Of a stretch of 64,000 nucleotides of DNA, positions 3,669 through 19,674 are shown piece by piece. The notes under the pieces are model-generated. The model had not been told where the DNA came from and ran no database searches. It saw nothing but the letters and a program-made list of their open reading frames with translations. The position numbers were made by a program, and so were the translations under genes. The stretch spans positions 1-64,000 of the forward strand of contig JANXAF010000004.1 in NCBI GenBank assembly GCA_025062045.1, in the 5' to 3' direction. This stretch comes from Thermodesulfobacteriota bacterium (GTDB taxonomy: Bacteria > Desulfobacterota > Syntrophorhabdia > Syntrophorhabdales > JANXAF01). Each line of letters starts with the position of its first letter. The stretch's first letter is position 1.

Positions 3669-4433
3669 TCAAAAAATTTCAGGTGGCTTAGGTGGCGGTA
3701 TTTCGGGAGGCGGTATAGGCCCAATCTGTGGACGACAAAACCAGCAGTTTCGATTGTTGCCACACTTCACAGGACTACAGAGACCGTCGCACAAATTCAG
3801 ACATTCAGCAAGAGAGCTGTAATAGCCACAGTTCCTACAGGGTGTAAGGGTAGTCGTCGTCGTTGTCGTTGTAGTCGTTGTGGTAGTTGTTGTGGTTGTA
3901 GTCGTAGTTGTAGTAGTAGTTGTGGTTGTAGTCGTAGTCGTTGTAGTGGTTGTTGTGGTTGTAGTCGTAGTTGTTGTAGTCGTAGTCGTAGAAGTAGTTG
4001 TCGTTGTAGTCGTTGTCGGTACCTCTTCTACCGGACACTCTATATTTGGATAAGCCAAAGAAGATCCAGGTCGATCCATTCGATAAGCAAACGTGTATTT
4101 TTTTATCCTGACTTCCAGTGTTAGGTCACTAAAACTCACTATCTCCGCACCAAGATCGATCTGGGATAAAAGATCCCCCATCGTATAAGAGTAATTGGGA
4201 CCCAAAAAAGCGGATCTGGCATAAAGGATTGAATTTGCACTCCTTAAGGCGGAACAGATCTTATTTGCCTGGGCGTATGCGGCACTTTTTGTGAAGTCCA
4301 AATACTTAATGAAAGCCACATAGGAAAGTATCCCAATGCTGACTATGATTATGAGAAGCTCTATTAGAGTTATTCCTCTTTTGTTAACCATCCGGACTTT
4401 ACTTGGGTAATCTTTAAGCAATTTCTGTACCAT
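3669..4433 (-). CDS. Type IV pilin with 56-residue Thr tract and Cys-rich C-terminal domain
   Basis: Residues 15-20 (MVNKRG) form a normal prepilin leader and are followed by ITLIELLIIIVSIGIL with Glu5. If translation begins at the first ATG, whose A overlaps the upstream stop (TAATG), the leader is 20 residues. If it begins at the internal ATG 4391, the leader is six. Residues 35-135 are a small pilin head. Residues 140-195 are 55 Thr and one Ser. Residues 199-235 hold eight Cys in a compact segment, and the tail is Pro-rich (PIPPPEIPPPKPPEIF). The layout suggests a pilin body, an extended possibly O-glycosylated stalk and a disulfide-bonded tip domain. It is co-transcribed with the PilR-like gene upstream and the GT-C-like gene downstream. 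It could be a tip adhesin or minor pilin; no function is proven. Confidence 0.85.
   Translation of the reverse strand: MVQKLLKDYPSKVRMVNKRGITLIELLIIIVSIGILSYVAFIKYLDFTKSAAYAQANKICSALRSANSILYARSAFLGPNYSYTMGDLLSQIDLGAEIVSFSDLTLEVRIKKYTFAYRMDRPGSSLAYPNIECPVEEVPTTTTTTTTSTTTTTTTTTTTTTTTTTTTTTTTTTTTTTTTTTTTTTTTTTTTTTTTLTPCRNCGYYSSLAECLNLCDGLCSPVKCGNNRNCWFCRPQIGPIPPPEIPPPKPPEIF
3849..4016 (-). repeat. ACN-codon repeat tract encoding poly-Thr
   Basis: Fifty-six consecutive codons are all ACN (Thr) except one TCT (Ser, 3990-3992). All four Thr codons are used, so this is not a simple trinucleotide run. An 18-bp string (plus-strand TTGTGGTTGTAGTCGTAG) occurs three times exactly, at 3890-3907, 3920-3937 and 3953-3970, with 30- and 33-bp periods. 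This indicates in-frame tandem duplication within the tract. Confidence 0.9.
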
Positions 4434-5779
4434 TACAGGTTGGAAACGTCTATACCGTGCTTTTTTATTCTATACCAGATGCTTCTTTCCGAGATACCTA
4501 AAATGGAGGCTGCCTTTTTCTGATTCCCCTTTGTAGCCTTTAATGCCTCAATTATACGTTTCCTCTCCAGTTCTTCTATCTGCTCATCGAGGGAAGTCCC
4601 TTCCGTGTAATGTTTCTTCGTTCTTTCCCTCATGTGTATCGGGAGATCTTCTAGGGTGACATAGCCATCTTCAGATACCGAAACCGCGCTTTTTAAACAG
4701 GCCAAAAGCTCCCTTACATTTCCTGGCCACGCGTAGTTGAGAAGGTATTCTTTAGCCTCTTTTGATATTCCAAGCTTCCTCCCCAGATCCTTTTCAAGCT
4801 CCAAAAGAAAATGGTCGATCAACGGACCTATGTCTTCTTTTCTCTTCCGCAAAGGAGGCACATCTATCACAACACCTGAAAGTCTGTAGTAAAGGTCCGG
4901 CCTGAATTTTCCTTCGCCCATGGCTTCTATGAGATTTTTATTTGTGGCGGATATGATTCTCACATCAAGCTTAACTTTTTTCGTGCTTCCAAGCCTTTCT
5001 AGCTCCTTTGTTTCAACGACCCTAAGTATCTTTGCCTGCAAATTAGGACCCATCTCTCCGATTTCGTCTAAAAAGAGCGTACCTTTCTCCGCCAACTCAA
5101 ATTTACCCTTTTTTTCACGGACCGCACCTGTAAATGCTCCTTTTTCGAAGCCGAAAAGTTCGCTTTCGAGAAGGGTTTCGGGGATGGATGCGCAATTTAC
5201 CGGAACAAATTCCCCCTTCCTGTTAGACAGTTTGTGGATGAGTCTAGCTACAACTTCCTTTCCAACACCAGTCTCCCCCGTTATCAGAACGGGAACATCT
5301 GTCTCCGCAACTCTTTCGGCAAGCCTTATGACTTCTTTCATCATTTCGCTTTTAACAACTATACCGTGGTAAGTGGTAGCATCATGCCATTCCTTCTTTT
5401 TTAACTTTGCCTCCTTCTCAATTTCCCTTTTTGCGAGTGCCCTTTTTACAACTACTTTGAGCTCTTCAAGAGAGATGGGTTTCACAAAAAAGTCAATAGC
5501 TCCCTTTTCGATAGCAAGCATGGCGTTCTTTTTGGTTCCGTACGCTGTGATAACTATGATAGGAGCATCCGTAAACCTTTTTATCTCCTCTATCGCAGAA
5601 AGGCCATCTATACCAGGAAGCTTTATGTCGATGAGTACAAGATCCGTATCTTCTTTAATGGACGAACTTGCTTTCTCGTAGCTTTCGAAGGAGAGGACTC
5701 TATGGCCTTCCCGTCGTAACGCTTCCTCTATGAAGAACCTAACTCCGCTGTCATCCTCGATAAGTATGATCTCTTTCAA
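4433..5779 (-). CDS. pilR: Sigma-54-dependent response regulator, PilR/NtrC family
   Basis: This 448-residue protein has the full NtrC layout. The receiver domain (1-120) has Asp9/Asp10, the phospho-acceptor Asp51 and Lys100. The AAA+ domain (about 138-375) has Walker A GETGVGKE (168-175), the sigma-54 contact loop GAFTGA (214-219) and Walker B LFLDEIGE. A Fis-type helix-turn-helix closes the protein (about 405-445, NQKKAASILGISERS). It should activate RNA polymerase-sigma54 at pilus or other promoters after phosphorylation by the sensor kinase encoded 7 bp upstream. Its stop overlaps the ATG of the poly-Thr pilin (TAATG), so these two are translationally coupled. PilR is the best name from context; another NtrC-family identity is possible. 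Confidence 0.85.
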   Translation of the reverse strand: MKEIILIEDDSGVRFFIEEALRREGHRVLSFESYEKASSSIKEDTDLVLIDIKLPGIDGLSAIEEIKRFTDAPIIVITAYGTKKNAMLAIEKGAIDFFVKPISLEELKVVVKRALAKREIEKEAKLKKKEWHDATTYHGIVVKSEMMKEVIRLAERVAETDVPVLITGETGVGKEVVARLIHKLSNRKGEFVPVNCASIPETLLESELFGFEKGAFTGAVREKKGKFELAEKGTLFLDEIGEMGPNLQAKILRVVETKELERLGSTKKVKLDVRIISATNKNLIEAMGEGKFRPDLYYRLSGVVIDVPPLRKRKEDIGPLIDHFLLELEKDLGRKLGISKEAKEYLLNYAWPGNVRELLACLKSAVSVSEDGYVTLEDLPIHMRERTKKHYTEGTSLDEQIEELERKRIIEALKATKGNQKKAASILGISERSIWYRIKKHGIDVSNL

Positions 5780-5786
5780 TTGATCC

Positions 5787-6788
5787 TTACCTCTTCGGAA
5801 GCACTATTCTAAATTCAGTTCCTCCATCAGTATTGACCTCTATGTGACCATTGTGAAGCTTTACATTCTTTTCGGCAATAAAGAGGCCAAGCCCACGACC
5901 CTCTTTTTTTGTAGTATAGAAAGGTCGAAATAGAAGTTTTTTCTCCTCTTCGCCGATTTTTGAGCTTTGGTTATATACGGAGATAGAGATGGGATCACCG
6001 TCCTCTATTTTTACCTGCAGATACCCAGCATTCCTTTCAGCCTCAAACGCATTTTTTATAATGTTGTATACTGCTTGGTAGATCTTATTTTTGTCGCCTA
6101 CGAAATGGGCATGTTTTTCAGCAAGAAAAGTTGAGCGGACAGTAGGAAATTCTCTCTTCAGAGATTCGTACGCCTCTTCTACTACATGAGTAAGATCAAA
6201 TTCTTCAATTGAAGGCTCTGTGTCTGTAAAGTCTAAAAGCTCTTTCGTGAAGGCATCTATCCTTTTTGTGGCCTCAAGAATCCTTCTAAGATAGAGTTCC
6301 TCTTCGGGGTCCGCCTTCTCCAAAAGAAGCTGTGCCATTCCAACGACAGTACTTAGTGGATTTCTCACCTCATGGGCTATAACGAGTGCCATAAAGCCAA
6401 GGGGAATTATATATTCGAGTCTCTCGATGGTGGCAATCTTATGCTCGTTTTCGGTCTTGGATGCGTTTAGCTTTGCCTCTGCCACAAGCTTTTCGATCAA
6501 TTCGTAAATCTCTATCATTCTTCCTTTCATCTTTTTCGGGCCTAGACCATATAAGCTATCCAATTTTCTCACCATGTCTTTTATGGGAGCTGTCATGGCA
6601 AAAAGGACAAGAAACACAAGAAAAGCACAAACTGCTGATATTCCTAGTAGAAGAATTTCGGGATACGAAACGTAAGCTGCTACATTTAGAGTGAAAAGGC
6701 CAATAAGAATGCAAACGAGAAAGACTAAGACAGGCACAAGGGTTGTTATGTTATATCTTAAATTTTTGGGGTCTCTAAAAAGCCGCAA
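5787..6788 (-). CDS. pilS: Sensor histidine kinase, PilS-like
   Basis: Two membrane helices (about 14-36 and 44-68) with almost no loop between them lead into a short coiled linker. The HisKA domain follows (IAHEVRNPLS, phospho-acceptor His139), then a HATPase domain with an N-box (NIIKNAFEAE) and G-box (GRGLGLFIAEKN). There is no PAS domain and no periplasmic sensing domain, so any signal is likely sensed within the membrane, as for PilS and pilin levels. The start is TTG 6788, with GGAGG just upstream overlapping the PilC stop region. It lies directly before the NtrC-type regulator, making a two-component pair. At 333 residues it is shorter than Pseudomonas PilS, which has six membrane helices. 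Confidence 0.8.
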   Translation of the reverse strand: MRLFRDPKNLRYNITTLVPVLVFLVCILIGLFTLNVAAYVSYPEILLLGISAVCAFLVFLVLFAMTAPIKDMVRKLDSLYGLGPKKMKGRMIEIYELIEKLVAEAKLNASKTENEHKIATIERLEYIIPLGFMALVIAHEVRNPLSTVVGMAQLLLEKADPEEELYLRRILEATKRIDAFTKELLDFTDTEPSIEEFDLTHVVEEAYESLKREFPTVRSTFLAEKHAHFVGDKNKIYQAVYNIIKNAFEAERNAGYLQVKIEDGDPISISVYNQSSKIGEEEKKLLFRPFYTTKKEGRGLGLFIAEKNVKLHNGHIEVNTDGGTEFRIVLPKR

Positions 6789-8012
6789 TCATCCTCCCGT
6801 CATCCTTACGGCCTGTATCATATTCCACCAGGGCATAAGCACTGCCAGAGCGAGAAAGAGAATCATAATAGATAAGGTTGCCGTCATAATGGGCTCTATC
6901 CATGCAGAAAGGCGGCTTATTGAGTATGTGACTTCACGATCGTAATGGGTCGATACCTCTTTTAGCATCTCCTCGAGGGCACCCGTTTCTTCTCCTGTTT
7001 GGACTAGATGAACAACGAGTGTGGGAAAGATCCCACTCTCTTTTAAAGGCTTGGAGATACCCCTCCCTTTCTCTATTTTCGTGCTTATCTCAGTTATCTT
7101 TTGGGCGATAAATTCGTTTCCAACTGTCTTTGAGACGACCTCAAATGTTCTCATTATGGGAACACCAGCCCTTATCATGTTCTCGAACATATAAGCAAAC
7201 CTGCTCATGCAGATCTTCAATAGTATAGGGCCTATGATTGGAATTTTAAGTTTCAGCCTATCGAATAAGAGTCTACCAGTAGGAGTACGACTGTAAAAGT
7301 ATAGGACGATCCCTAAAAGAACGAGAAGAGGAAAAATTAAGGGGCCGTAAGTCTGGACCAGACTGTTTATTAAAAGCATCATTCTCGTAGGAAGGGGAAG
7401 TTCCATTTTGAAGCCCTGAAAGAGTGCTGCAAAACGAGGAATTACAAAGGTTACAAGTACGAAAAAAGCAACTGCGATTCCTAAAGAGACCATTAAAGGA
7501 TAGCGCATGGCACTTTTAAGCATCTCTTTGGTCTTCATCTGGAATTCGAGGATACCTGCAAGTCTTTCCAGTACGTCATCGAGGACACCCCCAACCTCTC
7601 CGGCTCTTACCATGCTTATATAAAGCTCGGAAAAGATATCCTTGTGCTTTGAGATGGCATCCGATAGACTCATTCCCCTGTCGATATCCTGAGAGATCTG
7701 TCTTATGGCTCTTTTCAGCTTCAAATTGGCCGTCTGTTCTTCGAGGCCCCTAAGACCGGAAATTAGAGGAATACCGGATCTTATAACGGTCTGAAGCTGT
7801 CTTGTGAAGAAGATAAGGTCATCGTCCTTTACTTTCTGAAAGCGGACCAAAACCTCCTTTAAGTCTAAAAAAGACCTCTCTTCAACAACTGACACAGGAA
7901 TAAGACCCATGCTGTCAAGCTGAGAATACACAAGTACCTTTGTATCAGCCTCCATTGAGCCTACAATCAGACTTCCTTTTTCGTCTCTTGCTCTATAGAA
8001 GAATCTAGGCAT
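6789..8012 (-). CDS. pilC: Type IV pilus inner-membrane platform protein PilC/MshG
   Basis: The 407 residues contain two T2SSF domains, about 70-193 and 272-395. Each ends in membrane helices, and one central helix pair lies near 170-245. The N-terminal strand (FFYRARDEKGSLIVGSMEA) is typical of GspF/PilC. Family proteins form the dimeric platform that the PilB and PilT ATPases turn to add or remove pilin subunits. The gene lies 3 bp after pilB, and its stop abuts the start of the histidine kinase gene. Length and motif order are normal for the family. Confidence 0.93.
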   Translation of the reverse strand: MPRFFYRARDEKGSLIVGSMEADTKVLVYSQLDSMGLIPVSVVEERSFLDLKEVLVRFQKVKDDDLIFFTRQLQTVIRSGIPLISGLRGLEEQTANLKLKRAIRQISQDIDRGMSLSDAISKHKDIFSELYISMVRAGEVGGVLDDVLERLAGILEFQMKTKEMLKSAMRYPLMVSLGIAVAFFVLVTFVIPRFAALFQGFKMELPLPTRMMLLINSLVQTYGPLIFPLLVLLGIVLYFYSRTPTGRLLFDRLKLKIPIIGPILLKICMSRFAYMFENMIRAGVPIMRTFEVVSKTVGNEFIAQKITEISTKIEKGRGISKPLKESGIFPTLVVHLVQTGEETGALEEMLKEVSTHYDREVTYSISRLSAWIEPIMTATLSIMILFLALAVLMPWWNMIQAVRMTGG

Positions 8013-8015
8013 AGT

Positions 8016-9692
8016 TTAATCCACCTGGACAGAGGACAGAGCTTCCTCGAGACTTGTAATTCCAAAGGCCACTTTCTTTAAAGCATCCTCCTTCATCTCA
8101 GTCATTCCCCTTTCTTTTGCCACATTTCTTATCGCATCGCTTGAGGCCTTTCTCATGACAAGCTCCCTTAAATGTTCATCCATGATCAAGATCTCAAAGA
8201 TACCTATTCTTCCTCTGTACCCCGTATCTTTGCAGTTAGGACATCCCTTCGGTCTGAAGATAGAAATATCATCGGGAAGCCCGTGCTTTATGAGTACTTC
8301 TTTAGGCGGACTGTAAATCTCTTTGCATTCATTGCAAAGCCTGCGAATAAGCCTTTGAGCTATAACACATGTGACGGAGGATGCTACGAGAAAAGGCTCA
8401 ATCCCCATCTCTATTAGTCTTGTCAGTGCGGATGGCGCATCGTTTGTGTGGAAAGTCGAAAGAACGATATGGCCAGTGAGCGCTGCATGAATCGCAACCT
8501 CTGCCGTTTCTCTATCCCTTATCTCACCTACCATTATTATATCAGGGTCCTGCCTTAAGATAGCCCTTAAGCCCTGGTCGAATGTAAACCCAGCTTTTAC
8601 ATTTATCTGAGCCTGCGTTATGTTTTCAATCGTGTACTCAACAGGATCCTCTATAGTTACGATGTTTTTTTCCTCGGTGTTCAAATAATTGAGAATGGCG
8701 TAGAGAGTTGTAGTTTTTCCGGAGCCTGTAGGACCTGTGGCCAAAATGAAACCGTAAGGCTTTTTGATGACCCTTTTTAGTCTTTCCACATCTTGGTCGA
8801 GAAGACCGATCCTATCTATTCCGTAAAGCGATGCTGTCTTATCAAGAAGTCTCATAACTACTTTTTCTCCGTAAATCGAAGGATAAGTTGAGACTCTGAT
8901 ACTCACCTCTTTTCCATCCTCTTTCACGTCGAACCTTCCATCTTGCGGAATCCTCGTCTTTGCTATATCCATGTTTGCCATGATCTTTATTCTCGAAACA
9001 ATGGGAAGGTACATCTTCTTTGGAGGCGATGGTATCTCTCTAAGTTTCCCGTCTATCCTCATCCTTATTCTCATGAATTTTTCATACGGCTCTATGTGCA
9101 CGTCCGAGGCATTATCGGATATGGCTTGCGATATTAGGCTATTTACGAACCTGATAACCGGTTCCTCCTCTGAAACATCAAGGACTTGTGTTTCAATTTC
9201 CTCTTTGATTTCTTCTACTTCTTCTTTTTTCGTTATCTCTTCCAGAGTCTCCTCAACCAATGTCTTAATCCCGTAATACTTTTGCAATGCCCTTTTTATC
9301 TGGGATTCAGTTGTGAGGAACACTTCAATCTCCATCTTCGTTATACGAGATATTTCGTCTAAAGCTGCAATATCAAGGGGGTCTGCGGTTGCAATTCTAA
9401 GCACGTTTGACTTTCTCCCTATCGGAATTATGGTGTACGTTTTTGCAAGATCTGGCGGCACAAGCTTTAGGACATCGGCGTCGATCTCAAGATCGTCCAA
9501 ATTCACAACCGGAACTTTAAGCTGTTTTGTTAAGGCATCGACAATGTCTTTTTCAGTCAGAATCCCCATTCTAACAAGGATTCTTCCCAATTTTTCTCCG
9601 TATTTTCTTTGCTCCGAGATAGCCCTTGTAAGTTCTTCCTCTTTTAATTTTCCTGCATCAATAAGGATCTCCCCCAATCTCTTTCTTGGCAT
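8016..9692 (-). CDS. pilB: Pilus extension ATPase PilB/MshE
   Basis: This 558-residue GspE-type ATPase has an N-terminal MshEN domain with two RLG/KLG-type motifs (RLGEILIDAGKLKEEELTRA and KLGRILVRMG). This domain binds cyclic di-GMP in MshE and some PilB proteins, so nucleotide control of extension is possible here. The motor domain shows Walker A (GPTGSGKTTTLY), an Asp box (TIEDPVEYT), Walker B (DPDIIMVGEIRD) and a His box (ALTGHIVLSTFHT). The two C-x2-C zinc motifs (CNEC, CPNC) that mark extension ATPases are present. The gene lies 3 bp downstream of pilT and 3 bp upstream of pilC. All catalytic residues look intact. Confidence 0.95.
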   Translation of the reverse strand: MPRKRLGEILIDAGKLKEEELTRAISEQRKYGEKLGRILVRMGILTEKDIVDALTKQLKVPVVNLDDLEIDADVLKLVPPDLAKTYTIIPIGRKSNVLRIATADPLDIAALDEISRITKMEIEVFLTTESQIKRALQKYYGIKTLVEETLEEITKKEEVEEIKEEIETQVLDVSEEEPVIRFVNSLISQAISDNASDVHIEPYEKFMRIRMRIDGKLREIPSPPKKMYLPIVSRIKIMANMDIAKTRIPQDGRFDVKEDGKEVSIRVSTYPSIYGEKVVMRLLDKTASLYGIDRIGLLDQDVERLKRVIKKPYGFILATGPTGSGKTTTLYAILNYLNTEEKNIVTIEDPVEYTIENITQAQINVKAGFTFDQGLRAILRQDPDIIMVGEIRDRETAEVAIHAALTGHIVLSTFHTNDAPSALTRLIEMGIEPFLVASSVTCVIAQRLIRRLCNECKEIYSPPKEVLIKHGLPDDISIFRPKGCPNCKDTGYRGRIGIFEILIMDEHLRELVMRKASSDAIRNVAKERGMTEMKEDALKKVAFGITSLEEALSSVQVD

Positions 9693-9695
9693 AAT

Positions 9696-10742
9696 TTATG
9701 CTCTCACGTACTCGACTATCCTTGCAACGAAGGTGGCTTCTTCTTTAGTGATCTGTCTTTTCCGCAAAAGCTCACTTAAAGAGTCTTCCATCGTTTGCAT
9801 ACCATACTCCCTTCCAAGTTCCATGGCGGAGTACAGCTGATATGTCTTTCCCTCCCTTATCAAGTTCCTTATGGCAGGTGTACAGATAAGGATCTCACAT
9901 GCCGGAATCCTTCCACCACCGACTCTTTTTAGAAGTCTTTGGCTTACTACTGCTTCAAGTGTTATCGAGAGCTGGGAGCGTATCTGCGCTTGTTGATGGG
10001 GCGGAAAGACATCGATTATCCTGTCAACAGTTTGGGGAGCAGAGGTCGTATGGAGTGTGGAGAATACGAGATGGCCTGTTTCGGCCGCGGTTATAGCCGC
10101 TTGCATCGTTTCAAGATCCCTCATTTCACCGATGAGAATGACATCAGGATCCTGCCTTAGGACATGCTTTAAGGCATTTGCAAAAGAATGGGTGTCCTCT
10201 CCAACCTCCCTTTGAGAGATGACAGACTTTTGGGGAATGTATACGTACTCTATGGGATCCTCAACCGTAACAATGTGGACAGACCTTTCCTCGTTTATTT
10301 GATTTATCATAGAAGCCAGGGTGGTGGACTTTCCAGAGCCGGTAGGACCGGTAACTAGAATAAGCCCGCTCTGTCTGCGCGTAAGATCTCTAAGTATGGG
10401 AGGTAGGCCTAAATCCTCAAGTCTCGGTATCCTATAAGGAATACAACGGATTGCTAAAGCGATACTGCCCCTTTGCATATAAACGTTTATTCTAAACCTG
10501 GCCCTCCCTTTGAATTCGTACGCAAAATCGAGCTCTTTTTCCTCAAAAAACTTCTTCTTTTTTTCTCTTGTCAGCAATTCCTCTAGAAATGAAGTAAGAT
10601 CCGATGAAGTCAAAGGCCCCGATCGCATAGGTACAAGATCGCCATCAATTCTAAATGTAGGGGGCAGATTCTCAATAAGATGTAGATCCGAGGCGCCTTT
10701 CCTCACAGTTTCTTCCAGAAGCTCGATAATACTCAGTGCCAA
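9696..10742 (-). CDS. pilT: Pilus retraction ATPase PilT
   Basis: The 348-residue protein has normal PilT length and motifs: ASDLHL near residue 18, Walker A GPTGSGKSTTLAS, Asp box TVEDPIEYV, Walker B DPDVILIGEMRD, His box AAETGHLVFSTLHTTSAP, and a C-terminal segment starting CEILICTPAIRNLIREGK that matches the AIRNLIRE signature of PilT. There are no zinc cysteines. The start is TTG 10742, chosen because GGAGG lies 6 nt upstream. PilT hexamers depolymerise the pilus. A second PilT-like gene lies 11 bp upstream. Confidence 0.93.
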   Translation of the reverse strand: MALSIIELLEETVRKGASDLHLIENLPPTFRIDGDLVPMRSGPLTSSDLTSFLEELLTREKKKKFFEEKELDFAYEFKGRARFRINVYMQRGSIALAIRCIPYRIPRLEDLGLPPILRDLTRRQSGLILVTGPTGSGKSTTLASMINQINEERSVHIVTVEDPIEYVYIPQKSVISQREVGEDTHSFANALKHVLRQDPDVILIGEMRDLETMQAAITAAETGHLVFSTLHTTSAPQTVDRIIDVFPPHQQAQIRSQLSITLEAVVSQRLLKRVGGGRIPACEILICTPAIRNLIREGKTYQLYSAMELGREYGMQTMEDSLSELLRKRQITKEEATFVARIVEYVRA

Positions 10743-10753
10743 TCGGTACCTCC

Positions 10754-12301
10754 TCAGAAAAATCTCATATTCCTCAGAAAGATCTGCTTTATATCGCTAT
10801 CGAAGTGGACTCCCACTATCCTCACTACCTGACCAGAAAAATTGCGGGGTATATTTATTGTGACGGAATGCCAGTCTTCATCCAGAATGAGCTCTAAAGG
10901 AGGATTCGGAAACTCAATTTGCTCTGATGTAGAAAAGGTTAGAAATATCCCAAAGGAATAGCCAGGCTTTACGACCCGGACATCCTTTATGAGATACTCC
11001 ATTGAGAAAAAAGCTTTAAGTGTAAAACCGTCCTTTTTACCGTGTATTATTGAGTAATCGATTATGAAATTTCTGTCCACAGCTTTATAGAACTGACCTT
11101 CCATAAAAAGGAGGCCCGACGGGGTGTACATCAAAAAGCCAGAAGAATCCAAAAATTGCATTTCAGAAGAGTCGATCTGATAAAGAACGTTTTGCTTTTC
11201 TATACTTAGGGTTCCCCTCTTTCTATAAGAGGCGGATGTTGTGGGTCTTACCTCTCTTATCTTTTCTATGAAAACCTTTTCTTCTCGAGCCTGTTCTAAA
11301 GCTTCAGGAATGGGGATATAGCCTTTTTTCGCAAGTTCTAAGATAGAGTCGTCAAACTTTATCATGCCCTCTTTTTTTTGGGACTCCATGAGAGATGGAA
11401 CCTGGTGAATCTTTCCTTCGCGGATGAGATTTCTAACCCCGTCAGTAACCGTAAGAACTTCACAGGCGCATACGTACCCTTTCTTGTCGATTCTAGGAAT
11501 AAGCCTTTGGGAGCATATGCCTAAAAGGACATTGGCAAGTTGGGCATAAATGGCGCTCTTCTGTTCGTCTGGAAAAAAATCGATTATTCGATTGAGTGTC
11601 TGCACTGCGTCTCTCGTATGGAGCGTCGAAAAGACGAGATGACCAGTTTCAGCAAGCTCTATTGTTACCTTCATAGACTCTCTATCCCTTATTTCTCCGA
11701 CAAGGATCACATCAGGATCTTCCCTCAATACCCTTTTTAGAGCTTCATTGAACGATTTTGTATCCCTTCCCACTTCCCTTTGGCTTATAATCGAGCTTTT
11801 TGGCTTAAATACGAATTCTATAGGATCCTCGATCGTGACTATGTGGCAAGCTCGTTCCCTATTTATTAACTCGATGAGAGAAGCAAGCGTTGTGGATTTT
11901 CCAGAGCCCGTAACTCCTGTCACTAAAAATAGACCCTGTCTTTTTTTAGCAAATTCCTTTAGAAACTCGGGAAGAAGTAACTCATCAAAGGAGGGAACCT
12001 CTTCCGGGATCAAACGTAAAACCAAACCGAGGGCTCCGGATCTTACAAATCCATTAACTCTCAGTCTCGAAGAACCGACCTCAATACTGTAATCTATCTC
12101 TTTTTCAGCGATGAACCTCTCCTTCTGCCATTGAGTCAGATTCTTTTCAAGAAATGACTCCAAATGGCGCCTCTCTAAGGGACGACCGTTCAGGCTTTTA
12201 AGTCCGTCAGCTTTTAGTATCGGAGGAAGTCCCTCGAAGAGAAAGATACTTTTTGCGGCTTCTTTTTTCGCCCTCTCAATTATTTCCAGAAACCCTCTCA
12301 A
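10754..12301 (-). CDS. PilT-like ATPase fused to a C-terminal beta-rich domain (515 aa)
   Basis: Residues 1-350 are a PilT/PilU-type motor with Walker A GVTGSGKSTTLAS, Asp box TIEDPIEFV, Walker B DPDVILVGEIRD and His box AETGHLVFSTLHTRDA. The N-terminal ASDLHL motif is altered to AKSIFLF. Residues 351-515 have no counterpart in PilT. This stretch is rich in alternating hydrophobic strands and ends with WHSVTINIP, FSGQVVRIVGVHF and IFLRNMRFF. That ending resembles the last strands of jelly-roll (carbohydrate-binding-like) beta-sandwich domains, although a PilT protein should be cytoplasmic. The start overlaps the upstream TPR gene by 26 bp and a normal pilT follows. It may be a retraction co-motor like PilU with a regulatory domain; this is inference. 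Confidence 0.8.
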   Translation of the reverse strand: MRGFLEIIERAKKEAAKSIFLFEGLPPILKADGLKSLNGRPLERRHLESFLEKNLTQWQKERFIAEKEIDYSIEVGSSRLRVNGFVRSGALGLVLRLIPEEVPSFDELLLPEFLKEFAKKRQGLFLVTGVTGSGKSTTLASLIELINRERACHIVTIEDPIEFVFKPKSSIISQREVGRDTKSFNEALKRVLREDPDVILVGEIRDRESMKVTIELAETGHLVFSTLHTRDAVQTLNRIIDFFPDEQKSAIYAQLANVLLGICSQRLIPRIDKKGYVCACEVLTVTDGVRNLIREGKIHQVPSLMESQKKEGMIKFDDSILELAKKGYIPIPEALEQAREEKVFIEKIREVRPTTSASYRKRGTLSIEKQNVLYQIDSSEMQFLDSSGFLMYTPSGLLFMEGQFYKAVDRNFIIDYSIIHGKKDGFTLKAFFSMEYLIKDVRVVKPGYSFGIFLTFSTSEQIEFPNPPLELILDEDWHSVTINIPRNFSGQVVRIVGVHFDSDIKQIFLRNMRFF

Positions 12302-13337
12302 GATAGTTCAACCTCTCGATAACAGCCCTTTTTTGTTCCTTTGATTCCCCTTCCCTTAAATAGGCCCGATAATACCTTATGGCCTCTTTGTGTTCACCCC
12401 TTTCGTCTTTTATTAGGGCTAAAGCAAGATAAAGATTTGGATCCCTTACACCCTTTTCGATGAGTGGAAGTAGAACTCTTTCTGCCTCCGCATATTTCTT
12501 TTCGGATCTAAGTAAGTGCGAAAGATTTATGTACGGTTCAATCCCGCCTCCAAGTTCGATGGCTTTTTTGAAGTACTCTTCGGCTAGTTTCTTTTCCCCT
12601 TCTTGCGCAAGGACAATTCCTATATTGTTGTAAGCCTTGGGATAATCGGCCTTAAAGCTTAGACTCCTTCCAAAAAGGGAAAGGGCTTCTTTTTTTCTAC
12701 CCTCTTTAAGATAGATGAGACCTAAATTGTTTAACGCTTCCACATGATCCTGCTTCTGTGCGAGAATCTCATAGTATATCCTCTTTGCCTCTTCTAACTT
12801 CCCTTTCTCAGCGAGAATCTGAGCCTCAGCAAAAAGTGTATTTAACCTTTCCATGTCGATTCTTTCCACGTTTAACTTCCTTGCCGTATCCAAAGAAGAA
12901 CTTTCAGCGCTTTGAGGAACTAAAGCCTCCGCCTTTTCTGTTTTTGGAACCATCCGCGAAGGGGGTTTTTTGGATTTAGGAGAGGTCTTTATAGGTTTGG
13001 TTTTTGCGATCTCTCTCTTTTCGGGTTCAATTTTCTGAGCAGGAATTTCTTTTTTTTCTACTTTCTCTATTTCGACTTTAGGAGACGTATTAGGAGCCTT
13101 AGCAACTTCTGGAATGGTTCTAATCTCGCGTGTCTCTTCGATCCTTGTCTTCTCAATTGTGCTAAGCCCTTTATGAAGGAGAAAGAGTGCTGCCAACCCC
13201 AAAAATAGTAAAAGGAAGATCGATAAAGAAAGGGTTCTCCTTTTTTTCTCAGAGACACGACCCGAAAAGGGGATTCTGGCTTCTAGCTTTTTTCTTTCCT
13301 CTTCGGCCTTTTTTAACACATCAAGGATAAAACTCAT
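12276..13337 (-). CDS. GspB/MshN-like single-pass TPR protein
   Basis: The N-terminus MSFILDVLKKAEEERKK is the cytoplasmic signature of GspB/MshN-type proteins. One membrane helix follows (about 37-55). A Lys/Glu/Pro-rich periplasmic linker (60-140) leads into about five TPR repeats from residue 165 to the end (for example EALNNLGLIYLKEGRKKEAL and KAYNNIGIVLAQEGEKKLAE). In MSHA and type II systems, GspB- or MshN-type proteins help place or stabilise the secretin. This agrees with the 4-bp overlap (ATGA) with the secretin gene just upstream. The TPR part may bind secretin or peptidoglycan. The combination resembles MshN rather than the standard PilF pilotin. Confidence 0.75.
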   Translation of the reverse strand: MSFILDVLKKAEEERKKLEARIPFSGRVSEKKRRTLSLSIFLLLFLGLAALFLLHKGLSTIEKTRIEETREIRTIPEVAKAPNTSPKVEIEKVEKKEIPAQKIEPEKREIAKTKPIKTSPKSKKPPSRMVPKTEKAEALVPQSAESSSLDTARKLNVERIDMERLNTLFAEAQILAEKGKLEEAKRIYYEILAQKQDHVEALNNLGLIYLKEGRKKEALSLFGRSLSFKADYPKAYNNIGIVLAQEGEKKLAEEYFKKAIELGGGIEPYINLSHLLRSEKKYAEAERVLLPLIEKGVRDPNLYLALALIKDERGEHKEAIRYYRAYLREGESKEQKRAVIERLNYLERVSGNN

Positions 13338-14797
13338 AATGTTTCCTTTCCGTAAACTATCTTAGGCGTCAAAAGGATCACAAGCTCCGTCCGAACTCTT
13401 TCTTTAGATTTCGTTTTAAAAATCGGTCCAATAAGCGGGAGATTCATGGCCCCTTTTAGCCCAGTTTCGCTGTCTATAGTCTTGTCCTTTATAAGACCCC
13501 CAATAACGACGGATTCACCCTCTTTTACCCTAATTAACGTATCGACCTCCCTTACGGCAAGAATTGGAGCTGTGACCGTCATTCCAGCCTGGGTTGACTG
13601 TGCAAGTCCAACTTTTTCGGTAAGCACAGGATGGATATTCATCGTTATGTTTCCATCCCCGTCGATCTGAGGAATAACATCCAGTACAAGACCAACTGTT
13701 ACGTATCTCGGCGTAGTTGTCGCCGTAGCCGGAGCCCCAGGAGTCACAACTATTGAGGATTCAAAAAAGACATCTTCAGTCGCAACTTTAATAACAGCTC
13801 TTTGGTTATTGAGGGTAGCTATCCTCGGATTGGAGATGATGTTTACCTTGCCGTAGGTCCTCAAAAGATCCACAAAAGCCTCAAACTTCGTTCCGGATAT
13901 TATGCCAAACCTGAAATACTGGCTCGGTGGGGCAGGGAGTTGATCTTCCGGAACCCTGGGAATGTTGAAGTACCTGGTTTGAGGTGAAACTAGAATCTGT
14001 TCAGCATTCATCCTTATATCGTTCCATTTTGCGTTTATGTAAGCCCAGTTTACACCCTCCTTTGATGCCTCGTTAAGTTCAACCTCAATTATCCTTGCCT
14101 CAATCATAACCTGTCTTTGAATAGAGGCTTGTAAGGCCTCGAGAAAAAGGGCTATGTTTTTTTGGTTTCTAGGATAATCCATAACTATAACCAAAGATGC
14201 CTCTTTATTGAGGATCAGTTTTCCATCTGGGGACAAAAACTCTCTTAAGTTCGCTTCTAGTAACTTAAAAATGTCGGACTCTGTTTCGCTTTCTATTCGA
14301 ATCGCCTCTTCTTTCGCCGTCCTTTCAGTTCCGGTCGTTCCCCTTAGTGTACTTAATCCCCTTTTTCTTAACGCTACGTAGTTTACAGGATAAACTTTCG
14401 TTTCTATCTGTGGTTTGGAGACGTAAAGTGTCCTCTCTTCTATCTTGAATGCAAAGTTTAAAGGGCCGAGAATGTATTCAAGAGCCTTCTCGAGAGTCAC
14501 GTTTTTAAGATCGACAGTTATCTTTCCTTGAACCTCAGGAGAGATCACAACGTTAAAGTTCGTTTGTTTGCCTATCGCTTTGAGTACGTCTCTTACATCG
14601 GCCTCGCGGAGGGCAAAAGAGAAGACCTCCCTCGGTCCCTCTATGACTATCTTCTTTTCCCTTTCCGGTTGAGGAAGATAGGGGACAGAGATTTCGGGAG
14701 GCTGGATCTTGTCCCTTTCAACTCTTTCTTTTTTAGTTGTGGCGCAAAAAGAGAGGAAAAAAATTATAAAAAGGGTGATAAAAAGGCGCCCTGCCAT
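13334..14797 (-). CDS. pilQ: Outer-membrane secretin PilQ/MshL (lipoprotein)
   Basis: A lipoprotein signal (FFLSFC, lipid-modified Cys near 18) starts the 487-residue protein. A secretin/TonB short N-terminal domain (about 60-125, VFSFALREADVRDVLKAIGK) and one N1-type domain (about 185-225) come next. The secretin core (about 225-480) carries VMIEARIIEVELNEASKEGV, EGESVVIGGLIKDK and a final ELVILLTPKIV strand. It forms the outer-membrane channel for the pilus. The short N-terminal region and direct lipidation are like MshL and unlike PilQ proteins that carry AMIN domains. It follows the PilP-like gene by 8 bp. Confidence 0.92.
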   Translation of the reverse strand: MAGRLFITLFIIFFLSFCATTKKERVERDKIQPPEISVPYLPQPEREKKIVIEGPREVFSFALREADVRDVLKAIGKQTNFNVVISPEVQGKITVDLKNVTLEKALEYILGPLNFAFKIEERTLYVSKPQIETKVYPVNYVALRKRGLSTLRGTTGTERTAKEEAIRIESETESDIFKLLEANLREFLSPDGKLILNKEASLVIVMDYPRNQKNIALFLEALQASIQRQVMIEARIIEVELNEASKEGVNWAYINAKWNDIRMNAEQILVSPQTRYFNIPRVPEDQLPAPPSQYFRFGIISGTKFEAFVDLLRTYGKVNIISNPRIATLNNQRAVIKVATEDVFFESSIVVTPGAPATATTTPRYVTVGLVLDVIPQIDGDGNITMNIHPVLTEKVGLAQSTQAGMTVTAPILAVREVDTLIRVKEGESVVIGGLIKDKTIDSETGLKGAMNLPLIGPIFKTKSKERVRTELVILLTPKIVYGKETL

Positions 14798-14805
14798 GGT
14801 GCCTC

Positions 14806-15267
14806 CTATTCTTTTTCAAGTAAAATTGTTCTTCTCGACCCCTTACCCTCGAGACTCACGCTCTCTCTTCCTATGTCCACCACCTTCTCTCCGGTTTTTA
14901 TTATATCACCTTTTGATACGATCTCATCGCCAATTATGGCCAGCCTACCTTTTTTCCCCTCGATTATCGCGTAAAGTTTGATGGGTACATCCGGGATCTT
15001 TCTTTCCTCTTCGGAACTTGTCTTTTTTTTCTCTTCCACGTAAAAGGGATCTCGCCCCCAGCTTTCAAAATAGGTTATTGAAACCTGTGTCTCAACTTTT
15101 GGCATCGCTGGCAGAGGACTGATGAGAGTTGTTATAGTTACAGGGTCTGGAACATTACCTACTTGACTTTTCTTCTGGACTTTTTTCGGCTCAGCAAAAA
15201 CAAAAAGATAGACTGATAAAAGGACGGAGCCCAAAAATACAAATAGAACAGGCTTGCTTACCTTCAT
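14806..15267 (-). CDS. PilP/MshK-like alignment protein
   Basis: The 153-residue protein has an N-terminal membrane helix (about 6-25), a Lys/Pro linker and a segment SWGRDPFYVEE. The WGRDPF motif is typical of PilP, GspC and MshK. The C-terminal half (about 85-150) reads as a small beta domain (KLYAIIEGKKGRLAIIGDEI, GDIIKTGEKVVDIG), as in the homology region of GspC/PilP that docks on the secretin. It lies between pilO and the secretin gene, the classic PilNOPQ order, and its start overlaps the end of pilO by 4 bp. Sequence similarity in this family is low, so the call depends partly on position. Confidence 0.75.
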   Translation of the reverse strand: MKVSKPVLFVFLGSVLLSVYLFVFAEPKKVQKKSQVGNVPDPVTITTLISPLPAMPKVETQVSITYFESWGRDPFYVEEKKKTSSEEERKIPDVPIKLYAIIEGKKGRLAIIGDEIVSKGDIIKTGEKVVDIGRESVSLEGKGSRRTILLEKE

Positions 15268-15809
15268 ATTTCCCCTTTAAGCGCCTTTATTTCAAGAACC
15301 ATCTGAGCCCTCACATATTTGCTGTCCTTTTCATCTACTGAAATTTTTCCCTTAACTACCCCTTTTATGGCAGGGTTTTTTTCAAGATTTTCCAAAAAGA
15401 TTCCAACATCGAGGAATCTTCCCTTGACAGTTATCTCGAACGAGGGATAGATGAGCACCTTTCCTTCTAGACTCTTCAGGGAATTAAAAAGACCAGTAAT
15501 ACTTTCTACAACAAGCCCCCTTTTTTTTGCCTCCTGAGCTATTTCCCGGATTAAAAAAGGCGTCTGTCCGAATTCTGGAATTTTAGCCTTGACCTCCTTT
15601 AGCATACCTTCCATATCCTTTCTTTGACTAGTAAGTTTAATAATCACCTCCGTTTCCCTCTCTATCTTTGCTCTTTCATCTTTGAGCTCTTTGAGCTTTT
15701 TCTTACCCCCTTCGATCTTTGATGAGAAAGGGAAGTAGACTGTAACTAGCCATACGACTAAGAAGAGACAGGGAAAGAGAAGATAAAGATAAGCGGTCTT
15801 AAACTTCAA
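15264..15809 (-). CDS. pilO: PilO/MshJ-like alignment protein
   Basis: TTG 15809 is chosen as the start because GGAGG lies 6-7 nt upstream and the resulting protein begins right before the membrane helix (about 4-25). Longer frames starting upstream lie mostly inside pilMN. The 181 residues show the PilO pattern: a short N-terminus, one helix, a coiled-coil (about 35-75, rich in Lys/Glu), then a ferredoxin-like domain (LVVESI near 110, FLENLEKNPAIKGV near 145). PilO pairs with PilN in the periplasm to link the platform to PilP and the secretin. It overlaps the upstream pilMN stop by 11 bp. Confidence 0.8.
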   Translation of the reverse strand: MKFKTAYLYLLFPCLFLVVWLVTVYFPFSSKIEGGKKKLKELKDERAKIERETEVIIKLTSQRKDMEGMLKEVKAKIPEFGQTPFLIREIAQEAKKRGLVVESITGLFNSLKSLEGKVLIYPSFEITVKGRFLDVGIFLENLEKNPAIKGVVKGKISVDEKDSKYVRAQMVLEIKALKGEI

Positions 15810-17310
15810 TTCTTTCCTCCATAATCCCTGTAAGGGAAAACTCCAAAATTTTGTGGTCTTCACTCTCTTTCAGTCGTTTTTCAGAAACTTGAATGTCTTT
15901 CAGAATGCCGCGCTTCTCAAGGAGCATGATAAACCTAAAGAGGGATTCCTCAATGGTTGCGGGTTCGCCCACTGCGAAACCTTTTATAAGAACGGTGTAC
16001 ACGTTTTTGGTCTTATCCTTTTCGAAGGCAAGTTCCTTTAGATACACCCTTTCAGGCGTAAGATTTGAGATAGCCTTCAAAAGATAGACGAACGTTTTAT
16101 TCTTTTTTTTTGCCTCAGATAAGATCTGCCCCATTTCACTGAGGTTCCCTGGCGTAATACCAGTATTCCTAAGAAGAAACTCCCGTTTTTCGTTTAGTAA
16201 TTTCGTCTCTGCCTTAAGGTTAATTTCTAGGAATCTCAGTTTACTGTAGAGGCTAAATGAGAGAAAAAGAAAGACAGTAGCCAAAGCAACGGACAAGCCG
16301 ATTCCAACCCTCTTTAGTCTCATATCTCTTTTCCATTCAGTTTTTTCGGGAGGAAGGAGATTCAAAACTTTCTCTGGCTTCTTTGTAAGGGCGACAAAGT
16401 ATGCGGGCAAGAAAGACTCTTCCACATCAGCATATAAAAGAAGGGGTTCAACACTCATAGGCAACATTTCTTTGAATCGTTCTTCGAGCCCAGGTATCAT
16501 GGAACCCCTGCCGGTGAGGTAGAGGTGTTCACACACTTCCGTAGGGTATCTCTGGTTATAAACGTTTATCGTCCTTTCGAGTTCTCCTGATAGCCTCTCC
16601 AGAGGGGGAAGGAGATAGGGTTCGGTCTCAGGCGTAAACCCTTTTTCAGTTTTGAGAGTTTCCGCTTCCTCGAAACTGAGACCGAGACCCATTACTAATG
16701 AATCCGTAAAGCTTTCGCCGGCTGTGAGTATCTCCCGGACAAAAGAGAGTCTGTTATTTCTAAAAATATACAGGCCTGTTAGCCTCCCGCCTATATCTAT
16801 TATTCCGAAATTCTTTCTTTCCCTTTTTAGAGCCTTGGCAATCTCGGAATAAGGTGCAAGCGGATCGGTAATGAGAGAGATATTTTTAAAACCTTGCTCT
16901 TCAAAAATACCGATGAGTCTTTCAACGAACTCCCTTTTTACACCGACAAAGTACATCTCCTCCCTTCTTATTCCCTTTTCATCTACAGGACCGATTGAGC
17001 CGTAATGGAATATGTAGGTATCGAGGGGCTCACCGAGTACTTTGGGAAGGGACCACTTTACGGCTTCTTTGAGCTCTTCTTTAGGAAGAGGAGGAAGGGT
17101 GAAGGTTCTTTTGACGATCTCGGTTGTGGTGATCGTGAGCCTTATCTCAAAATCCGTACCCTCCTTCTCCTTTATATCCGCAAGTATGGATGGGAGATCG
17201 TCCAACGAGCCGGAATAAGGATATATGCCTTTTGCCCTGACTACACCTTTTTTCCTAATGATAACATACTTTACGGAAGTCGAACCTATGTCTATAGAGA
17301 GGATCTGCAT
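15799..17310 (-). CDS. PilM-PilN fusion protein (GspL-like layout)
   Basis: Residues 1-310 are an actin-like PilM domain: IDIGSTSVKYV phosphate loop, VGVKREFVERLIG, IDIGGRLTGLYIF, and LTGRGSMIPGL near 270. Residues 325-503 are PilN: the motif VLNLLPPEK near 320 corresponds to the conserved N-terminal 'NLLP' that PilN uses to bind PilM, followed by a membrane helix (about 337-357), a coiled coil and a ferredoxin-like domain. In most type IVa systems these are two proteins joined by that motif. Here they are one chain of 503 residues, as in GspL or MshI/BfpC-like proteins. It starts with ATG just downstream of a PilX-like gene and overlaps pilO. Confidence 0.88.
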   Translation of the reverse strand: MQILSIDIGSTSVKYVIIRKKGVVRAKGIYPYSGSLDDLPSILADIKEKEGTDFEIRLTITTTEIVKRTFTLPPLPKEELKEAVKWSLPKVLGEPLDTYIFHYGSIGPVDEKGIRREEMYFVGVKREFVERLIGIFEEQGFKNISLITDPLAPYSEIAKALKRERKNFGIIDIGGRLTGLYIFRNNRLSFVREILTAGESFTDSLVMGLGLSFEEAETLKTEKGFTPETEPYLLPPLERLSGELERTINVYNQRYPTEVCEHLYLTGRGSMIPGLEERFKEMLPMSVEPLLLYADVEESFLPAYFVALTKKPEKVLNLLPPEKTEWKRDMRLKRVGIGLSVALATVFLFLSFSLYSKLRFLEINLKAETKLLNEKREFLLRNTGITPGNLSEMGQILSEAKKKNKTFVYLLKAISNLTPERVYLKELAFEKDKTKNVYTVLIKGFAVGEPATIEESLFRFIMLLEKRGILKDIQVSEKRLKESEDHKILEFSLTGIMEERIEV

Positions 17311-17328: not shown

Positions 17329-18222
17329 TCACTTTTCACAGGTCGGGATCTTCTCAGGATCGATAGTGAATCTCGAAACATAAAAGGTGGAGGATGCGAG
17401 ATCGTCCTTCCAGAAAACCTTCAGATGATGGGCAACTTTGAAGTTCCAGCTTTTTAGATTTAGGATGATAGATATTCGGGTGTCAGTTGAAGCTGGCATC
17501 TCATAGTAAGGGACTATATTGAAAAAGAGGGTCGCATAACGCGTGTCCGGAATCCTTACACATTTATCTTTTCCCTCCTTACAGGGCGCCTCTTCACAAC
17601 CTTTCTTTTCGCAGGGAGGACAGACGCCTTCTCTGCATCTTGTATCGTTTTCAGCACTGTAAACTAAAACCTGTCTTCCCGGTTTTTCCTCGAAGGCGAT
17701 GCTTAAAAGACATGTGGAACAGTTTTTGTCCTCAATGCTTAAATCTATTCTCCATATGTAAATTTTTGAGCCGGTGTTATTGAGGATAGGGATTCTAAAG
17801 TCATCCTGACCCCGAATCTTACAGGGGAGATTGTTGGGAAATAGGCTTACCCCTCCTTGGAGGTAACCTGTAAATCCTTCAAGTCTCACTTCCCTCTTTC
17901 CAAGACCGGAAGAGGCTGTGCTCGTAAGAGAGTTACTATTCGGATCGTAATTTACCGTAACTACACCCCTTCCTAAGTTGATAGTCCTCGGAAATACCGA
18001 TTGTGGATTTTCAATAAAGGAGTACCCCTTATCATGGGCGTACCTTATGGAAAACTCTATTCCTGCATTCGCAAGGCATAGGGCTTCGAAAGATCTGGCC
18101 TCTATTGGATATGATCTCATCTTAGAGCTCATAAAGGAGACGACCCCTGCGCCCAGAATTCCGCTTACGACAATTATGGCGATAAGTACTACTAGGGATA
18201 TTCCTTTTTTATCTGATAACAT
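17329..18222 (-). CDS. Minor pilin, PilX/GspK-like, Cys-rich
   Basis: ATG 18222 is preferred over the upstream ATG because GGAGG lies 8 nt upstream and the leader becomes a normal MLSDKKG. The mature helix ISLVVLIAIIVVSGILGAG has Val instead of Glu at position 5, a feature of GspK/PilX-type tip pilins. The 297-residue chain has a head of about 250 residues. It contains a Cys-dense insertion (about 195-225) with six Cys in CREGVCPPCEKKGCEEAPC and the following KC, plus CSTC nearby. Overlaps with neighbouring minor-pilin genes support co-translation. It is probably part of the priming or tip complex. The Cys cluster is not a standard PilX feature. Confidence 0.75.
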   Translation of the reverse strand: MLSDKKGISLVVLIAIIVVSGILGAGVVSFMSSKMRSYPIEARSFEALCLANAGIEFSIRYAHDKGYSFIENPQSVFPRTINLGRGVVTVNYDPNSNSLTSTASSGLGKREVRLEGFTGYLQGGVSLFPNNLPCKIRGQDDFRIPILNNTGSKIYIWRIDLSIEDKNCSTCLLSIAFEEKPGRQVLVYSAENDTRCREGVCPPCEKKGCEEAPCKEGKDKCVRIPDTRYATLFFNIVPYYEMPASTDTRISIILNLKSWNFKVAHHLKVFWKDDLASSTFYVSRFTIDPEKIPTCEK

Positions 18223-18823
18223 CCTCGTATCCTCCGTGAAAACTCCTTCCCCTAAAATAGCGCGCATTTTTCACATTCTTGGGACATACCGTTGAAGCCA
18301 CACTCAAAGAAAGATCTTCTTTTTGGAGCCTGATCGTTATTTCAAAGTAAGGATCCTGATTTGTTCCTCCCCCTTTGTATCTCACCCTGAAATCACTCAC
18401 ATTGCTCACAAGGACCTTTCCTTCGGGGTAAGGCGGTCTTGGAAACGTATCTGCCATGGAAGCCCTCATTAGCCGGTTGCCCCGAAAGTAAAATATAACG
18501 TATTTCTTTGTCTGACCCGGAAGAAGCGGGTCTTCTGGAGTGGGATGGGCTAGTTCAAATACGAGAGCTTGAGATTCTAGAACATTTGGGTTCGGCAAGA
18601 AGTTTGGCTCAAGGAGTGTGATATCTACTTTTGCGTCCCTTAGTTCCCTCGTTATCCTTTCTAAAGCGTAGGTAGCCTCTTCATGGAGCTCCCTCGCAGA
18701 TCCTAAAGTTGCGTATGTCTTGGACTGGAAGTATAAAAAACCGAAGAAAAAGATCGAAAGGATGGAAAGTAGGAGAGCGGTAATAACAAGTTCAATAAGC
18801 GTTAAGCCTGTACTACTCTTCAT
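18209..18823 (-). CDS. Minor pilin, PilW/GspJ-like
   Basis: The leader MKSSTG is followed by LTLIELVITALLLSILSIFFFGFLYF with Glu5 conserved. Residues 40-65 (ATYALERITRELRDAKVDIT) match the pattern following the helix in PilW/GspJ pseudopilins. The body of 204 residues has a beta-rich end (EITIRLQKEDLSLSVASTVCPKN) where the VCPKN motif is typical of PilW-like proteins. The gene overlaps the upstream PilV-like gene by 11 bp and the downstream PilX-like gene by 14 bp. It likely joins the FimT, PilV and PilX homologues in a tip/priming complex. Confidence 0.8.
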   Translation of the reverse strand: MKSSTGLTLIELVITALLLSILSIFFFGFLYFQSKTYATLGSARELHEEATYALERITRELRDAKVDITLLEPNFLPNPNVLESQALVFELAHPTPEDPLLPGQTKKYVIFYFRGNRLMRASMADTFPRPPYPEGKVLVSNVSDFRVRYKGGGTNQDPYFEITIRLQKEDLSLSVASTVCPKNVKNARYFRGRSFHGGYEDVIR

Positions 18824-19253
18824 CTAGGGGCCTTTTTGAAACGAGCGTGGTTACCAAAAATTCTACGCCCTTCGGTTCTTTAACGTAGAGCTCTATGAGT
18901 TTGTACTTTGTTTCCGTTTGGGATTCTACAAAGGTTATCGATTGTCCCGATTCGACGTATCTTACAAACTTGATAGAACACTTCCATCTGTACGTGGGCT
19001 CACCAGAGAAAGGCACGTAACCTGAGGGACAGTCATTGGCGGAGATACTGTCGAAGGACTTGCTCGTTATTTCTTCGAGTTTGGACTCCGCAAGGAATCT
19101 GGCTTTAACGATCGATTCGGGTTTTGCCGCGTCCTTTAGAACAGTATGGTACGCGATAAATGTAAAAGGCACAAAAATTCCCGCAACTACGATGAAGACT
19201 AAAAGCTCAGTGAGGCTCAATCCGGAACTATTCGATCTTTCCGGTGACGGCAT
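18813..19253 (-). CDS. Minor pilin, PilV/GspI/MshD-like
   Basis: A 146-residue prepilin. The leader MPSPERSNSSG precedes LSLTELLVFIVVAGIFVPFTFIAYHTV with Glu5. The segment KARFLAESKLEEITSKSFD is the usual PilV/GspI continuation (in GspI, a helix containing A-x-x-x-A-E). Two cysteines (NDCPSGY and WKCSI) could form a disulfide in the head. The start overlaps the end of the FimT-like gene by 26 bp. By order it is the second of four minor-pilin genes at the promoter-proximal end of the pilus operon. Confidence 0.78.
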   Translation of the reverse strand: MPSPERSNSSGLSLTELLVFIVVAGIFVPFTFIAYHTVLKDAAKPESIVKARFLAESKLEEITSKSFDSISANDCPSGYVPFSGEPTYRWKCSIKFVRYVESGQSITFVESQTETKYKLIELYVKEPKGVEFLVTTLVSKRPLDEE

Positions 19254-19674
19254 AGATTCTTATGGCCTTGCCTCCTGAAAGATAGATGTATCGGTCATGG
19301 GAATCAGGAAAATCGGGTTCTCCCAATGTGTTAAAAACGAGCGCATTGCCCGGAAGCGTTGTTCTTTCAACTACCGTGCCCTCGGGAAGTCTTTTTCTCT
19401 CACCATCTATGAAGTACTCACCGGTGCCAGGGTAAAACTGAACAGTTTTTTTTGCCAGTTGGCCCATAGTGATTAACTGAACCGATCTTATGTCAGCAAC
19501 GAGCTGATCGTAGGCTGTCTCTGCCAAATAGTCGGTTTTGGAGAAATACCTGTACCCGACCGCCAAAGAGAGTACCGCGACAGCAGCAATAAGAATCAGA
19601 AGTTCAGTAAGAGTGAATCCCTTCGTCAAATGAGTGATACAATTATAACAAAGTCTTGCCATTTTGAGAAACAT
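19228..19674 (-). CDS. Minor pilin, FimT/GspH/MshC-like
   Basis: The mature N-terminus FTLTELLILIAAVAVLSLAVG has Glu5. The rest is a short GspH-like head ending in strands that read VFNTLGEPDFP and IYLSGGKAIRIYAVTGKIE, typical of FimT/GspH where the last strands carry G-rich turns. The start is uncertain. ATG 19674 and ATG 19662 give leaders of 18 and 14 residues, while TTG 19629 gives MTKG. A good -10 element (TATAAT, minus strand, 19642-19647) lies between them. If it is used, the mRNA begins near 19635 and TTG 19629 must be the start. It is the first gene of the pilus operon. Confidence 0.75.
   Translation of the reverse strand: MFLKMARLCYNCITHLTKGFTLTELLILIAAVAVLSLAVGYRYFSKTDYLAETAYDQLVADIRSVQLITMGQLAKKTVQFYPGTGEYFIDGERKRLPEGTVVERTTLPGNALVFNTLGEPDFPDSHDRYIYLSGGKAIRIYAVTGKIE
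19642..19647 (-). promoter_or_regulatory. Candidate -10 box at the head of the pilus operon
   Basis: A perfect TATAAT reads on the minus strand 12 nt before TTG 19629. A poor -35 (TTCTCA, 3 of 6) sits 17 bp upstream. If functional it places the transcription start inside the longest version of the FimT-like gene and would make the leader only about six bases long. Confidence 0.35.

Follow-up and report, generated by a model that had tools for sequence, protein, structure and literature searches.

Duplication of a pilus retraction ATPase into PilT and PilU has been described for type IVa pili (PMC6668835). The retraction ATPase PilU depends on PilT for its action in both Vibrio and Pseudomonas, and the Vibrio protein forms a separate homohexamer that raises retraction force (PMC6762196, PMC6821130). 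PilU is also devoid of the AIRNLIRE motif (PMC6762196), and the PilT/PilU motors additionally serve the MSHA pilus (PMC9815625). How such accessory motors couple to PilT is an open question for which stacked hexamers and a role of the AIRNLIRE motif have been proposed without direct evidence (PMC6762196). Extra PilT paralogues in one cell are further exemplified by Neisseria PilT2 and the four PilTs of Geobacter, for which the available portions of the published accounts describe no appended beta-sandwich (PMC10790696, PMC5065972).

Here, we describe a PilT-family ATPase with an added C-terminal domain that is encoded in a pilus operon of a Thermodesulfobacteriota genome of the order Syntrophorhabdales, within the stretch of 64,000 nucleotides that we analyzed (hereafter, the window). 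We coined the name PilTX for this protein, and no report of a fusion of this type was found in the open-access literature. It is through their descriptions only that PilT2 and the Geobacter PilTs are set apart from it.

The PilTX gene and its pilus operon

PilTX (10754-12301; like all window genes discussed here, on the reverse strand) is a protein of 515 amino acids with a TTG start codon. Its N-terminal domain (residues 1-100; 12002-12301), which is PAS-like in PilT and PilU, is delimited by alignments to PilT structures in the PDB and by a match to the PilT/PilU model TIGR01420 that spans residues 5-341 with 410.6 bits (cutoff 319.1). The RecA-like motor domain follows (residues 101-341; 11279-12001) and ends together with this family match. 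It contains the Walker A motif GVTGSGKSTT (residues 129-138; 11888-11917) and the Walker B region DPDVILVGEIRDRESM (residues 195-210; 11672-11719), and both motifs as well as the Asp box and the His box are intact in the window protein, while some are altered in its orthologues. PilTX of the window thus shares with PilT both domains and all family motifs.

Beyond this core, alignments to PilT and PilU chains of the PDB stop at residue 349 or before, and no meaningful sequence match to the last 168 residues was found in Pfam, NCBIfam, PHROG, or the PDB. A first-pass annotation of the window had proposed an intact retraction-ATPase core followed by an extension without PilT/PilU counterpart, which is what we found, though its placement of the extension at residues 351-515 has to be revised. 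The core already ends around residue 341 and gives way to a linker of low conservation (residues 342-363; 11213-11278; 25% mean pairwise identity) and then by the added domain proper (residues 364-515; 10757-11212), which is predicted to be all-beta and is probably a sandwich of the CBM-like or galactose-binding type. The same annotation had noted a normal pilT next door, and a canonical PilT of 348 amino acids (9696-10742; TIGR01420, 488 bits) indeed lies directly downstream.

An obvious concern with any such fusion is that a separate downstream gene might have been joined to a pilT-like sequence by an assembly or sequencing error. The first-pass annotation had pointed to 11230-11260 as the place where a frameshift or join would have to be looked for, and none is present there. 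A search of 60 related genomes recovered the full-length fusion at 42-61% identity with a junction free of stops, and in total the frame runs uninterrupted across the same junction in 16 further genomes of the order, with near-constant length of the domain and no internal stops. The TTG start and an overlap of 26-32 bp with the upstream TPR gene likewise recur among the orthologues that we checked. We therefore regard an artefactual origin as ruled out for all practical purposes.

In order of transcription, the operon begins with four small ORFs considered pilin-like by an N-terminal methylation motif or by position (17329-19674), followed by a PilM-PilN fusion of 503 amino acids (15799-17310), PilO (15264-15863), a small PilP-like protein named by position only and without any family match (14806-15267), a secretin (13334-14797), and a TPR protein with an N-terminal hydrophobic segment (12276-13337) that overlaps the start of PilTX. 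PilTX and PilT are then followed by a PilB/MshE-like extension ATPase (8016-9692), a PilC/GspF platform protein with two T2SSF domains (6789-8012), a histidine kinase (5787-6788), and a sigma-54 response regulator (4433-5779). This gene order, with PilTX starting before the TPR gene ends, is constant up to the contig limits in nine relatives that we read in detail. Full-length relatives of the PilM-PilN fusion of similar size recur throughout the order. One relative (L049:2756-3977; G004:C58) has its PilC divided between two overlapping ORFs, owing to either a frameshift or a sequencing error.

The best NCBIfam match of the secretin is MshL, and the PilB protein has an MshEN domain (85 bits) with the MshE-type c-di-GMP-binding motif (NF053729; 64.8 bits vs. 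a cutoff of 38); the pilus system is therefore MSHA-like, a resemblance that extends to the TPR protein, PilM/N, and PilO. However, the secretin scores below the MshL equivalog cutoff (220.4 vs. 250.2 bits), and unlike the MSHA system the window operon comes with two predicted retraction motors of its own.

Relation to PilT and PilU

Like PilU, PilTX is a PilT-family paralogue encoded adjacent to pilT and always accompanied by it. Our phylogeny of 61 rows, in which the solved reference sequences had been transcribed by hand from printed alignments and contain small errors, does not support orthology to PilU. All PilTX proteins form one clade (100/99). This clade and an odd mosaic copy from genome G012 are jointly sister to the operon PilT (99/96), while solved PilU groups well away from PilTX with a second pair of motors from the same genome. 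We consequently rejected PilTX as a PilU orthologue. Since it groups with the operon PilT and not with PilU, its duplication is separate from that of PilT and PilU; as judged from these sequences, PilTX arose by duplication of the neighboring pilT, independently of the PilT/PilU split.

The second pair comprises another PilT and a true PilU (G000:C4:81.8-83.9 kb), the latter scoring 454 bits against solved Pseudomonas PilU. It lies outside any pilus operon (L046:5737-7891; G000:C4:81.7-83.9 kb), between ScpB-like and MiaA-like genes and a FeoB-like gene, all named by eye from their ORF translations. The mosaic copy of G012 (L074:13850-14929; G012:C9) stands by itself as a PilT-family gene in another pilus locus and is placed beside PilTX in the tree without having the added domain. 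It has a degenerate Walker B motif (DGIKD) and a degenerate His box (TLRT), and it looks like a mosaic of PilT and PilTX.

Beyond its position in the tree, its additional domain of ca. 150 amino acids, and its coexistence with a separate PilT-PilU pair, PilTX differs from PilU by the retention of an AIRNLIRE-type motif. This motif reads GVRNLIRE in the window and has similar forms in the orthologues, while the corresponding stretch of the genome's own PilU is RVKDLILK. PilTX may therefore contact the pilus machine in the way that PilT does rather than in the way of PilU.

Constraint, distribution, and predicted fold of the added domain

PilTX differs from PilT not only by its added domain but also by faster evolution and by motif erosion among the orthologues. 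Across the order, the operon PilT has nearly invariant catalytic motifs and 68% mean identity, compared to 52% for PilTX. The histidine of the PilTX His box is replaced by alanine, valine, or arginine in six of 14 sequences, the GE of Walker B is changed to GD or HE in three of the 14, and several sequences show variations in Walker A around an invariant GKSTT. Sequence comparison thus indicates that the catalytic motifs of PilTX are less constrained than those of PilT and are eroding in several lineages.

In contrast to the linker, the added domain is about as conserved as the N-terminal domain of PilTX (43% vs. 42% mean pairwise identity), and the aligned length from residue 342 onward is 174 amino acids in all complete orthologues, give or take the last residue. 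For five genus-level pairs, dN/dS amounts to 0.025-0.08 in the added domain and 0.07-0.12 in the motor core, values that point to strong purifying selection on the domain. The constraint is not uniform given that a sixth pair, L050/L056, has values of 0.29 for the domain and 0.22 for the core. These two PilTX proteins (L050:9492-11066 in G032 and L056:3157-4785 in G015) also have GD instead of GE in Walker B along with the raised dN/dS in both parts, a pattern that may reflect relaxed constraint or an altered function.

Stronger constraint on the domain than on the core in five of the six pairs, together with the faster evolution of PilTX and its substitutions in three catalytic motifs, would fit a largely inactive pseudo-motor whose ATPase activity has in large part been lost and whose extra domain lets it serve as a scaffold or as a brake on PilT. 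However, GKSTT is present in all orthologues, the Walker B glutamate is kept in most of them, and the PilTX core is itself under purifying selection, so that we consider this explanation rather unlikely.

A profile of the added domain matched 17 of the 46 genomes of the order, in ten of its 19 genera, always as a single copy and always as part of a PilTX fusion (in one of them, G039, PilTX is cut by a contig end). Outside the order, no match was found in a sample of 395 genomes of the phylum, and a scan of GTDB contigs with strict patterns matched only MAGs labeled as Syntrophorhabdaceae-type/Syntrophorhabdus or as "Deltaproteobacteria", so that the window most likely derives from a sister family in a Syntrophorhabdales-type order. 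The plasmid and viral contig collections that we searched had no match either, and given this restriction to one PilTX fusion per genome we rejected the idea that the domain is a mobile module used elsewhere.

AlphaFold2 models were built from eight sequences, which limits their quality. The domain on its own is modeled as all-beta at low confidence (mean pLDDT 57.6, pTM 0.56), and in the full-length model it is mostly below a pLDDT of 50 so that its placement is unreadable. The best PDB neighbors of the domain model in Foldseek include the sheath protein FlaA1 and carbohydrate-binding modules of families CBM4, CBM11, CBM22, and CBM61, with E-values of 6e-4 to 2e-3 but TM scores of only 0.3-0.48 and large rmsd and poor superposition, all on a model of pLDDT 57.6. 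At the profile level, the best PDB match is the C-terminal domain of an exo-beta-glucanase (ExoP) with a non-significant E-value of 0.12, and the best Pfam match (E = 0.028) was obtained with one of nine members. Searches against the PDB and Pfam and hhalign against CIA30 thus produced no significant sequence-profile match to a known CBM-like or galactose-binding family. Kinship to CIA30 (PF08547) was rejected at 0.3% in hhalign, and ExoP_C (PF18559) had no members for comparison in 148 genomes of the phylum.

The jelly-roll likeness suggested by the first-pass annotation therefore holds to the extent of a predicted all-beta build and faint similarity to CBM-type domains and FlaA1, while the TM scores and the low confidence of the model speak against anything firmer. 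We treat the added domain as a probable, not an established, beta-sandwich of the galactose-binding/CBM type that differs from the CBM-like domains in the absence of a significant sequence match and in its fusion to a cytoplasmic motor.

Such a fold would be compatible with a ligand-gated motor, in which the domain would bind a small cytoplasmic molecule such as a nucleotide sugar, a glycan precursor, or a second messenger and thereby switch retraction on or off. Besides the CBM-like neighbors in Foldseek and the weak match to a beta-glucanase domain, the c-di-GMP-binding motif of PilB from the same operon makes ligand control of the machine plausible. Yet the fold assignment is weak, CBM relatives are mostly extracellular, and the best conserved aromatic residues such as W477 in a D-x-x-W motif may be structural rather than ligand-binding. 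Ligand gating therefore seems distinctly unlikely to us, and we see equally little reason to expect a motor with a built-in sensor for which a CBM-like domain would have moved into the cytoplasm and become fused to a duplicated PilT, with a cytoplasmic ligand directly gating retraction.

Joint presence and loss with PilT and a proposed accessory role

In all 16 PilTX genes with readable flanks, pilT is the adjoining gene. Conversely, ten otherwise intact loci of the order lack both PilTX and PilT, and PilB directly follows the TPR gene (an eleventh candidate, L066, ends too early to judge). On a locus tree built from PilB, secretin, and PilO, the presence or absence of the pair changed at least five times. 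One of these absences can be traced in G012, which belongs to the same genus as G004, a genome with PilTX. In G012, an ORF of 107 amino acids sits in place of the pair (L062:7793-8116; G012:C26) and joins the first 67 amino acids of PilTX in frame to the last ca. 54 amino acids of PilT while all other operon genes are intact. By its sequence this ORF is a deletion scar, so that at least in this genome the pair has been lost and the operon can outlive its predicted retraction pair. Within the scar, another small deletion has changed the reading frame of the PilT tail. Among the other loci without the pair, a marginal remnant was found in G029 (L064) and none in the rest.

These loci retain PilM/N, PilB, PilC, and in most cases the two-component pair, so that none of these components needs the added domain. 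Because PilM, PilB, and PilC are all kept in the absence of the pair, the partner that is most in need of it would most plausibly be PilT. Joint loss of adjacent genes can reflect a single deletion, and it does not by itself prove a physical partnership.

On balance, and with moderate confidence, we favor the interpretation that PilTX is an accessory retraction ATPase working with the operon PilT, from whose gene it originated in a tandem duplication separate from the PilT/PilU split. Its position, its linkage, and its relaxed catalytic constraint fit the role of PilU, which is why we propose that it is an accessory motor comparable to PilU but with an origin of its own. The first-pass annotation had likewise suggested an auxiliary motor beside a normal PilT, an idea that is supported by the paralogy of the two proteins, their constant linkage and joint absence, and the less constrained catalytic motifs of PilTX. 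Its further suggestion that this motor reads a signal or binds a partner such as the platform protein or a c-di-GMP effector is conjectural. In the mechanism that we favor, PilT would provide the essential power stroke and PilTX would most likely form its own hexamer coupled to that of PilT, adding force or regulation by analogy to PilU of Vibrio and Pseudomonas. As the C-terminus of a cytoplasmic ATPase, the added domain should be cytoplasmic and should thus bind a cytoplasmic protein or ligand. As a docking or adaptor domain, the beta-sandwich on its flexible linker would most likely recruit PilTX or hold it in position.

With PilTX, an accessory retraction motor appears to have originated independently, and its added domain could be the element that couples this motor to PilT. 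With at least five switches and one deletion scar, the order offers natural comparisons of one pilus operon with and without the pair, which can reveal what the predicted retraction module contributes.
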